Source: a virus
IMG/VR virus record: IMGVR_UViG_3300005067_000011
Coordinates: 1 to 30,132 of that record
Length of the DNA stretch: 30,132 bases
Direction: 5' to 3' (one strand)
The notes below the pieces were generated by a model. The model was not told the origin of the DNA. It ran no database searches and saw only the letters and a list, made by a program, of their open reading frames with translations. This document shows positions 4,255-30,132 of this stretch, piece by piece; within the stretch, counting starts at the first letter, position 1; each line of letters opens with the position of its first letter. Both the position numbers and the translations under genes were made by a program.

Positions 4255-4587
4255 ATGACAGGCGAGGAATGGATTCAATTAATTGAAAAAAGAAGGAACG
4301 AATTTCATCAAGCGGTGAATATGATGTTAGAGGAAATACCCGAAAGTGAGTGGCAAGCTTATGAAATTTTACTTTATGAAGATGGAAGAATTATTTTGCA
4401 AAGATATGCTTTCACAAATACTTATGATAAAAGATGGCTAAATGGAAAAGCAGTATCATTTTTAAGAATTTACACAAAAGATTATAAAGAAGATGGAAAA
4501 GCTTTATTGTATATAAAAGAGCATGCTGATGATTATATTGAAAATGCTATCAGTTTTATAAGAGATAAAGAAATTATCAAAGATTAA
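4255..4587 (+). CDS. Small unknown protein, paralogue family member
   Basis: 110 aa, with SD AAGGA upstream. It carries the family plan of the genes at 323, 732 and 8290: EWIQLIEKRRNEF at the start, YEILLYEDGRIILQRYAF in the middle, WLNGKAVSFLRIYTKDY, then a helical tail. It sits directly after an unknown gene in the 3.6-5.3 kb operon. The conserved W-x-x-G-K-A-(V/I)-S core is the clearest shared feature. No function can be assigned. Confidence 0.72.
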   Translation: MTGEEWIQLIEKRRNEFHQAVNMMLEEIPESEWQAYEILLYEDGRIILQRYAFTNTYDKRWLNGKAVSFLRIYTKDYKEDGKALLYIKEHADDYIENAISFIRDKEIIKD

Positions 4588-27643: not shown

Positions 27644-28702
27644 ATGTCAGGTTTGATATTTGATGGAATCGATTTGCATAGCTTGAATTTTTATGTAACG
27701 TCAGATAGTAGAAGTGCTGAATATGATGAGGAAATACTTGAAATTGATGGAATGAACGGAGCTATTTCATTAAGTGAGAGATTGACTTCGAGAAATATAA
27801 CAGTAGGAGGCTTTGTTTTTGGAGAAGATACAAAAATAGCTGGCACAGTATCGGCAAAAAGTGGAAGTTATGAGCTAAATGGAGTTGGAACGAAATTCAC
27901 AAATTTAAGAATTGGGAACGATTTAAAAATAAATGGCAAAGTTTATAAAATCGCTAAAATAGTATCCGATACAAAATTGGAAATCGAAGGAACTTTTGAT
28001 ATAACTTTCACAAATGCAGAAGCTTGGCTAAAAGATTATTCTGTATGCATGAACAATTCAACAAAGTTATCGGAGTTAATCAGTACAGCAACAGCTAAAA
28101 CTCCAAAAGAGCTATTTTTTCCTGACACAAGTAAGTCTATATTTGTGAAACGTGGAACTACTCCGTTTATTTCAAGCGTATTCTCTGGAGCGACTTTTAA
28201 AGCATCGGCACAGAAAATTACTCTAAACTTCATAGCTCACGATCCATATTTCTACGGAGAAGAGTGGGCTTTAAATGGGGCTGTTTTAAATACGAAGTTA
28301 ATTGAAAGCGATGTATCGTATCCACTATTGGCAGCGTTTCATTCAGAAGATATTGAGTTCATGGCTATTACAAGTGCAAAAACAAAAGATGGCTGGGACT
28401 TAATCGATAGTAACGGATTTATTATTATTGATAGTACTTTTATCCCACAAACAGATTTTGCAATAACTTCATACAATGGCTTTGGTGGAAATGGCTTTGA
28501 GTGGCTACTATATATTGATGGAGCTGGAGACGGATTTGAATGGGAGTATACAAATCCGAGCACAATATTAACAATGATAACAACTGATATTGTTGGGAAT
28601 CCCGCAACAAGTTTAAATTTAGTAGATCATGTAGCTGAAGAGGGATATTGTATTTGGGAAATGGAAAATTCAAAAACAACTCTGGAGGTGCAAAATGTTT
28701 GA
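27644..28702 (+). CDS. Distal tail protein (Dit-like) with insertions
   Basis: 352 aa, SD AAGAGGTGAAA. The N-terminal part has Dit features (LIFDGIDLHSLNFYVTS; DGMNGAISLSERLTSRNITV), and KITLNFIAHDPYFYGEEWAL near residue 200 is the typical Dit ending of the ring domain. Residues 67-129 are an inserted small beta domain with the phage pattern ELNGVGTKFTNLRIGNDLKI and KIVSDTKLEIE. A C-terminal extension of about 130 residues, Gly/aromatic-rich (GFGGNGFEWLLYIDGAGDGF), may bind carbohydrate (inference). It overlaps the diversified target gene by 8 bp. Confidence 0.82.
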   Translation: MSGLIFDGIDLHSLNFYVTSDSRSAEYDEEILEIDGMNGAISLSERLTSRNITVGGFVFGEDTKIAGTVSAKSGSYELNGVGTKFTNLRIGNDLKINGKVYKIAKIVSDTKLEIEGTFDITFTNAEAWLKDYSVCMNNSTKLSELISTATAKTPKELFFPDTSKSIFVKRGTTPFISSVFSGATFKASAQKITLNFIAHDPYFYGEEWALNGAVLNTKLIESDVSYPLLAAFHSEDIEFMAITSAKTKDGWDLIDSNGFIIIDSTFIPQTDFAITSYNGFGGNGFEWLLYIDGAGDGFEWEYTNPSTILTMITTDIVGNPATSLNLVDHVAEEGYCIWEMENSKTTLEVQNV

Positions 28703-29738
28703 TTTCAGTAGAATAAAGTTTATTAGTGTAGACAAGATTACAGGTGCAAAAGTTGGTGAATACTCGAATACGTCAACGATAACGAGTGCCGATAACGATG
28801 TTGTAGATTATAAAGTAGAAATTCCACCAATTTATTACAAAACAGCTCTTGACGGAAACAAATGGAAACATTATCTTAGCTGGGATTATAAAATAGGTTA
28901 TGAGCTACATCCCGCTTTTATCCACAATGGCAAAGTTTGCATGAGAAGGCTCGGAGCTTTTGAAGCATCCATTGACGTGGATAATCGCTTGCGTTCAATT
29001 CCATTTGTGCAACCAACAACAGAGAAAACAATTGATGAATTTAGAACTGCTGCAAAAAATAGAACTCCAAACGCTGGAACCTATTATGGATTGAAAAACG
29101 GATACGACTATGGACTACTCGGATTATTATTTGCTCTGAAATATGGAAATTTAAACTCGCAATCATCTCTTAGTCAAGGAATAACAAATTTAAATTCTGG
29201 AACGGTCAATCACAGTCAAAATACTGGTCATACTCTATCACTTGGTTCGAACTCAGATGGGCAGGTAGAATTGACTACTCTCGAGAATGGCGCTACTTTT
29301 CAATCAGGGCAAACTGCAACACATCCATTCAGATTCTTATGGATGGAGAATTTATGGGGCAACGTTTGGGAATTTCTTGATGGCTTTATAAAAACAGCAG
29401 ATGGATTACATTTTGATGAAGAGAACAATAACGCAAATCCATCGGCTATGAAAGAATTTTATCCAAGAGAAGATGTTACAGAATATAAATTTGGATATGC
29501 AGATAAAGCAGATAAGAGAATCGGTTGGGGAATAGTTCCAGAATACAGCTTTAATGGAAGTTCCAGTACATATTTAACTGATTATTTATGGCTTAATACT
29601 GGCACTCGAGTCGCTCTGTCGGGTGCGTATTGGTATAATGGCTCTCTGGCCGGTTTGTTTTCGTTGCATCTGAGTAGTCTTTTGTCGTATTCTGTTCGGA
29701 ATATTGGCGCTCGTCTTGCTTCTTATGTTGAAATTTGA
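28695..29738 (+). CDS. DGR-diversified C-type-lectin/FGE-fold tail protein
   Basis: 347 aa, SD CTGGAGGTG, overlapping the Dit-like gene. The N-terminal third contains GYELHPAFIHNGKVCMRRLG AFEAS-type lines seen in phage DGR targets. The centre has FLWMENLWGNVWEFLDGF, as in formylglycine-enzyme/C-type-lectin folds. The last 39 variable residues (306-344) lie in the variable repeat and end GARLASYVEI. Variable positions cluster around GAYWYNGSLAGLFSLHLSSL, the surface loop of Mtd-like proteins. Most likely it is the receptor-binding tip protein. No Tal/gp18-like gene stands between it and Dit. Confidence 0.9.
   Translation: MFDFSRIKFISVDKITGAKVGEYSNTSTITSADNDVVDYKVEIPPIYYKTALDGNKWKHYLSWDYKIGYELHPAFIHNGKVCMRRLGAFEASIDVDNRLRSIPFVQPTTEKTIDEFRTAAKNRTPNAGTYYGLKNGYDYGLLGLLFALKYGNLNSQSSLSQGITNLNSGTVNHSQNTGHTLSLGSNSDGQVELTTLENGATFQSGQTATHPFRFLWMENLWGNVWEFLDGFIKTADGLHFDEENNNANPSAMKEFYPREDVTEYKFGYADKADKRIGWGIVPEYSFNGSSSTYLTDYLWLNTGTRVALSGAYWYNGSLAGLFSLHLSSLLSYSVRNIGARLASYVEI
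29610..29726 (+). repeat. DGR variable repeat (VR) in the target gene
   Basis: 117 bp, codons 306-344 of the target, 81% identical to 29801-29917. All 22 differences are at codon positions 1 or 2; none of 39 third positions differs. The invariant end CTCGTCTTGCTT (29710-29721) is probably part of the initiation-of-mutagenic-homing region. Confidence 0.9.
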
Positions 29739-29757: not shown

Positions 29758-29800
29758 TAGATTTTTGTTGATTCTTTGAATTTTGGGGAAGAAAAAGTAA

Positions 29801-29917
29801 GTCGCTCTGTCGGGTGCGATTTGGGCTTATGGCTCTCCGGCCGGTTTGTTTGCGTTGGGTCTGAATTATCTTTTGTCGTCTTCTTCTCGGGCTCTTGGCC
29901 CTCGTCTTGCTTGTATT
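29801..29917 (+). repeat. Second DGR repeat: VR-like copy at the template position
   Basis: It begins right after an in-frame TAA and has no target-gene homology before or after the 117 bp, so its limits are those of a template repeat. It lies 108 bp before the reverse transcriptase start, the normal template place. Yet it contains only six or so adenines, and the mismatch pattern with the VR excludes it as the VR's direct adenine template. It resembles a mutagenised product of the same lost or distant template. No long frame codes through it. Confidence 0.85.
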
Positions 29918-30025
29918 TGCGCCTTTTTCTTTCCCGACCACTCGGTCAAATATAAAAATTGAGAAATTCACGTTAGTAAATGCAACTTATTGAAAGCGTG
30001 AAAAGTACAACAAGCAAGGTGATAT

Positions 30026-30132
30026 ATGAAAAGATATGGAAATCTTTTTAATCAAATAGTAGATATTAACAATTTATTATTAGCACATTCAAATGCGAGA
30101 AAGAATAAAACTTTTTATGAAGAAGTAAAAAT
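30026..30132 (+). CDS. DGR reverse transcriptase, N-terminus only
   Basis: The ATG at 30026 follows SD CAAGGTGAT. The 35 complete codons read MKRYGNLFNQIVDINNLLLA then HSNARKNKTFYEEVK, matching the opening of DGR reverse transcriptases (MKRYGNL-x(5)-I-x(3)-N-L-x-x-A-x-x-x-A-x-x-x-K). The gene is cut by the window end, so the catalytic YxDD and the adenine-error motif cannot be seen. It would copy the template RNA with errors at adenines. No Avd-like accessory gene lies between target and enzyme. Confidence 0.88.
   Translation, partial: MKRYGNLFNQIVDINNLLLAHSNARKNKTFYEEVK

Follow-up and report, generated by a model that had tools for sequence, protein, structure and literature searches.

A phage DGR whose template slot appears to hold an A-depleted, independently mutagenised product

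The DGR locus at the right end of the window

The stretch of DNA analysed, here called the window, is a virus record of 30,132 bases. At its right end lie genes for terminase, portal, head morphogenesis and tape measure proteins, followed by the gene for a 347-aa tail protein that contains the VR. The features relevant to this work are as follows.

28695–29738, plus strand: target gene, encoding the 347-aa phage tail protein with the VR at its C terminus (PHROG 5302, E = 7e-49)
29610–29721, plus strand: VR, 112 bp, one member of the repeat pair and homologous to the VRs of the related contigs L001–L004
29728–29757, plus strand: inverted repeat of the DGR recipient site (TTGAAATTTG / CAAATTTCAA), which folds as a hairpin directly 3' of the VR
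29785–29800, plus strand: sequence bordering the slot on its 5' side, with unchanged adenines (GGGGAAGAAAAAGTAA), where relatives have GGGGAGAAAAAGTAA directly upstream of their template
29801–29912, plus strand: template slot with an A-depleted, mutagenised copy of the repeat; 19 mismatches against the VR, 18 of them on adenines of the relatives' template
29902–29912, plus strand: 3' end of the copy, CGT CTT GCT, which is VR-type; the codon tables give CAC CTT ACT for the relatives' templates
29913–30025, plus strand: spacer between the template slot and the RT, conserved (79% identity to L002)
30026–30132, plus strand: start of the DGR reverse transcriptase (RT), 35 codons, the rest being cut off by the contig end (MKRYGNLFNQIVDINNLLLAHSNARKNKTFYEEVK)

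The VR occupies the 3' end of the target gene, as in a DGR, and residues 302 to 342 of the encoded protein give a weak profile match to PDB 5vf4 (E = 0.018). The hairpin is placed after the stop codon of the target gene and is retained in the relatives via compensatory changes (GAGATTTG / CAAATCTC). As in other DGRs it follows the VR only: we detected no hairpin after the template slot, nor any coding frame belonging to the copy in it. The intergenic, near-identical repeat adjoins the RT, with the position and flanks seen in L002–L004, and the stretch between target gene and RT, where a candidate Avd gene was sought, has no plus-strand open reading frame of at least 60 aa. An RT family search of the window itself gave no match, the gene being cut at the contig end, whereas the full-length RT of L002 matches RVT_1 (E = 1.5e-17) and PHROG 1423 (E = 4e-123). 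Over the 35 visible codons, the differences between the window and L002 are synonymous at 11 codons and non-synonymous at 3 (32 of 35 residues identical), a pattern of purifying selection on the RT during most of its history after the two lineages split.

Aligned without gaps, 29610–29726 and 29801–29917 differ at 22 of 117 positions: 10 of these show A on the VR side, 4 on the copy side and 8 on neither side. This count, given in a previous reading made from the sequence only, was reproduced exactly, but its boundary was not: from about position 29912 onward the window aligns with the post-template sequence of the relatives (TTGTTTTTGCGCCTTTTTCTT), the true repeat of 112 bp ends at 29912, and the mismatches at 29913, 29915 and 29916 lie outside it. 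The 112-bp repeat itself accounts for 19 of the mismatches, of which 9 show A on the VR side, 3 on the copy side and 7 on neither side. The 22 mismatches all fall on codon positions 1 and 2, as the same reading had stated, and none on position 3. A chance origin of the pair is excluded, since the window holds two copies of the repeat, and no third, where none is expected. The slot copy contains 5 adenines in 112 bp (4.5% A) as opposed to 30 in the L002 template, and it has A at only 3 of the 19 mismatches, against an average of 95.8% A-facing mismatches in the 247 control loci described below. On this ground we file the locus as a derived, probably inactive DGR, and not as a working one.

The template of related phages

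A search with the target protein identified four related contigs, L001–L004, whose proteins are 79–85% identical (83–85% at the amino acid level for L001–L003), and a more distant relative, a phage of Oceanotoga (Thermotogota), at 69% amino acid identity. L002, L003 and L004 carry identical A-rich templates at the same slot, each followed by an intact RT, while their VRs differ. Their templates are flanked by GGGGAGAAAAAGTAA on the 5' side and TTTTTGCGCCTTTTTCTT on the 3' side, and the spacing between VR and template is 192 in these contigs versus 191 in the window. Each contig of the relatives (the longest reaching 49 kb) contains a single template and a single VR, with no further repeat copy downstream of the RT. 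The template-like borders ascribed to the copy, and its place next to the RT, gained support: both of its flanks are the template-locus flanks of the relatives, and the RT begins at 30026.

Eighteen of the 19 mismatches between copy and VR fall on adenines of the relatives' template (Fisher p = 5e-12); the lone exception is codon 34, for which the ancestral first base is not known. Template A occurs at 27 sites, all of them first or second codon positions; there the copy has G at 9, C at 7, T at 6 and A at 5, and the VR has A at 11, T at 7, G at 7 and C at 2, whereas at the remaining 85 comparable sites the two differ once. Because an A-rich template stands in the same slot in relatives and 18 of the 19 mismatches lie on its adenines, we conclude that 29801–29912 is the template slot and that a further product of A-mutagenesis, independent of the VR, now fills it. 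The sequence-only reading had traced VR and copy to separate mutagenesis events on a third template rich in AAT codons, and had suggested that related phages be searched for it at this locus; such a template is what L002–L004 carry. Its more specific forecast of AAT at codons 7, 9, 10, 20, 22, 23, 29, 31 and 39 is borne out by the relatives' template for the first eight, codon 39 being outside the repeat, and AAT stands also at codon 27, beyond the predicted set.

Copy and VR share many silent differences from the relatives' template. Since they agree with each other at the non-adenine sites where both differ from that template, the slot sequence derives from the phage's own lineage, not from another phage, and the change arose within that lineage. 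The relatives are approximately 80% identical at the DNA level, and the window lineage's own ancestral template was not among the matches. A search of IMG/VR with the pattern GTCGCTCTGTCGGGTGCG for a closer relative of the exact repeat gave no matches, and pattern searches with the template flanks recovered only contigs already known.

In its organisation the window resembles L002–L004 and, functionally, Bordetella phage BPP-1, that is, a phage-type DGR with the order VR, TR, RT. It shares with them the C-terminal VR in a tail protein, the hairpin after the stop codon, the intergenic repeat upstream of the RT and the conserved spacer. It departs from them in that the slot repeat is A-depleted, its mismatches do not face A and its 3' end is in the VR state.

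A survey of DGR loci and a second case

DGR loci drawn from IMG/VR and from genome contigs were surveyed for the composition and mismatches of their TR/VR pairs. The 247 control loci (309 distinct pairs, 222 distinct templates) have 95.8% of their mismatches facing A; their templates have a median A content of 26.8%, the lowest being 19.3%, and their VRs a median of 8.9%. Among the roughly 250 loci whose slot could be read, two had an A-poor one, namely the window (4.5% A) and L204 (10% A), and template overwriting is on our reading of the sequences present in these two. L204 (IMGVR_UViG_3300037044_000018) has its repeat pair at 2611–2692 and 2805–2886 and an intact RT open reading frame of 322 aa, its RT lineage and the window's being unrelated. 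All ten mismatches between its copy and VR fall on adenines of its relatives' templates (p = 5e-7). Its copy is in the VR state at positions 1, 14, 20 and 68, where A is fixed in templates and G in VRs, and ends in the template-type CAC CTATGC where the L204 VR has CGC CTTTGC. The other outliers of the survey, L052, L089, L109 and L230 among them, proved on inspection to have A-rich templates or unrelated repeats. L230 has three DGR repeat copies (at about 2645–2905 and 4297–4397); two of them are neighbours at a distance of 160 bp, and each of these two is rich in A.

Roux et al. (2021) describe, within a very large set, only 7 clusters of genuine DGRs with fewer than 75% of mismatches facing A (PMC8144416). 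These clusters share with the window a slot repeat that lacks A-directed mismatches in an otherwise genuine DGR; they differ from it in that the A-rich ancestral state of the window is seen in relatives, and their cause may be a different one.

In BPP-1, which way sequence is transferred depends on the difference between IMH and IMH* (PMC3240598, PMC5006420). In the RT clade of the window, VRs have an Arg codon (CGC or CGG) close to their 3' end that is CAC or CAG in templates, with nearly no exceptions, and by analogy we take this marker to correspond to the IMH/IMH* difference. L204 has the marker in the template state. In the window, the copy has CGT, and over codons 35 to 37 it equals the VR, so that the difference is absent here. 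The marker of the window may either have changed along with the rest of the slot or have changed first and made the template a recipient. Throughout this clade, in L002–L048 and similar loci, templates have A (CAC/CAG, AGC AGT) at places that are almost always G in VRs, near both the 3' and the 5' ends, and this fixed A/G difference costs viable products if it is mutated at random.

Probable self-retrohoming and competing explanations

The explanation we favour, with somewhat better than even confidence, is that the template was overwritten by mutagenised cDNA via the element's own retrohoming. By the comparison with relatives, copy and VR both go back to one lost A-rich template through A-directed mutagenesis; on the favoured explanation, an A-mutagenised cDNA made from the template RNA would have been installed at the template locus instead of, or besides, the VR. 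Template adenines mutated in this way would be lost permanently while other bases are untargeted, each self-homing event would reduce mutability, and with 5 adenines remaining the tail protein would no longer be usefully diversified, leaving the element frozen. Pointing to homing are the same slot, the same flanks and the near-equal spacing as for the A-rich templates of L002–L004, the A-to-N spectrum of the copy's bases at the 27 template-A sites, and L204 as an independent second case in an unrelated RT lineage. Such a cDNA also matches the template locus better than it matches any VR. The cDNA is thought to anneal to a single-stranded target during replication; in a reconstituted DGR, target accessibility during replication matters and the hairpin is not strictly required, its loss not abolishing homing (PMC12875486). 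Standing against homing are the copy's last codons, which have bases of VR type (CGT and GCT for CAC and ACT), its VR-type codons 5 and 6 near the 5' end, and the lack of a hairpin 3' of the template slot. Self-retrohoming had been raised by the sequence-only reading as a real possibility; the comparison with relatives makes it the preferred mechanism, short of proof and with gene conversion as its competitor.

Gene conversion, in which homologous recombination would have copied an earlier VR allele into the slot, so that the sequence was made by the DGR but reached the slot without retrohoming, seems to us less likely than homing. VR-type end bases are not predicted by simple homing upstream of IMH* and are predicted by conversion from the VR; the window copy is in the VR state at the fixed template-A/VR-G sites of codons 5, 6, 35 and 37, the L204 copy has its four VR-state positions, and the converted stretch is confined to the VR/TR repeat. 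However, normal TR and VR are just about 75–80% identical, in short blocks, recombination between them is rare in the reconstituted DGR (PMC12875486), and codon 34 of the copy is Pro (CCT), which the tabulated VRs do not have there. Moreover, unselected cDNA of the reconstituted system shows a strong preference for A-to-G at NAG sites, the VRs of our survey show an A-to-G preference at NAG and CAC sites, and mutagenesis itself could yield some of the VR-type bases without any conversion; this context bias of the RT explains the A-to-G sites in part. Given the A-to-G bias at NAG sites in both the published unselected data and the survey, we no longer count as decisive the case for a passage of the copy through a selected VR, which had been built on its VR-type bases at constrained sites. 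The template-type 3' end kept by L204, for its part, is what is expected of a homing tract that stopped before the IMH zone. A further inference, that the low A retention (5 of 27) reflects several rounds of self-overwriting, was also dropped, as 7% of the surveyed VRs retain equally few.

Three other explanations, two of which the sequence-only reading had listed, fare worse. An assembly artefact, by which a VR variant was joined into the slot although the phage itself has an A-rich template, would be conceivable in a metagenomic contig that ends 220 bp further on and whose VR reads would be many and variable; we consider it improbable, since the longest exact stretches shared with the VR region, 19 nt on the 5' side and 12 nt on the 3' side, are too short for usual assembly k-mers. 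The changed bases reach to within these distances of the unique flanks, a true template like the relatives' would bring the overlap down to about 7 nt, and the independent case L204 comes from another data set. That the copy is an orphan or second VR, with a working template past the RT or elsewhere in the genome, is more improbable still. Some DGRs do have several VRs, and the window ends inside the RT with the sequence beyond unseen; but both flanks of the copy are template-locus flanks, the slot copy has no hairpin or coding frame of its own, and the relatives, with contigs of up to 49 kb, have one template, one VR and nothing after the RT, so that neither the orphan VR nor the downstream template proposed before found support. 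The explanation to which we give the least credence is that the A-poor copy still works as a template, almost without mutagenesis, and so keeps resetting the VR to a single sequence. Conservation of the spacer and of the visible start of the RT speaks for it, but the VR differs from the copy at 16 of 19 mismatches (9 + 7) where the copy has no A, and the present VR is therefore not derived from the copy.

Returning to self-retrohoming, the claim that the copy is not a usable template was itself an inference: RNA could still be copied from the slot, but only 5 adenines are left to mutate. With so few variants to be had from 5 adenines in 112 bp, and with a VR of other descent than the copy, the window's tail protein is probably frozen. 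We propose tentatively, at slightly less than an even chance, that retrohoming-driven overwriting of the template is a recurrent natural route of DGR death that freezes a phage host-binding protein and has been taken independently in at least two RT lineages, those of the window and L204. DGRs are described as one-way systems, with the template as the invariant source, the VR as the recipient and the direction set by IMH versus IMH* (PMC3240598, PMC5006420). If templates can be overwritten in nature, this direction is not absolute and the template adenines are a consumable that needs protection; a DGR could then be lost without any deletion. Detection that requires A-facing mismatches misses loci with overwritten templates, and their frequency is thus probably underestimated. 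For the laboratory, the question raised is at what rate a reconstituted DGR mutates its own template locus.

Diversification has been lost with the VR gene intact also in L001 and in Oceanotoga phage vB_OteS-UFV02; there, however, the template is truncated and the RT deleted, whereas the slot of the window is full-length and rewritten. In L001 (7108–7180) the template breaks off at about position 59, where it is fused to what follows the RT in L002. In vB_OteS-UFV02 (L010, 7095–7150) a template remnant of about 20 bp is left, with no RT after the VR gene, and this loss is probably independent of that in L001, the breakpoints being different.
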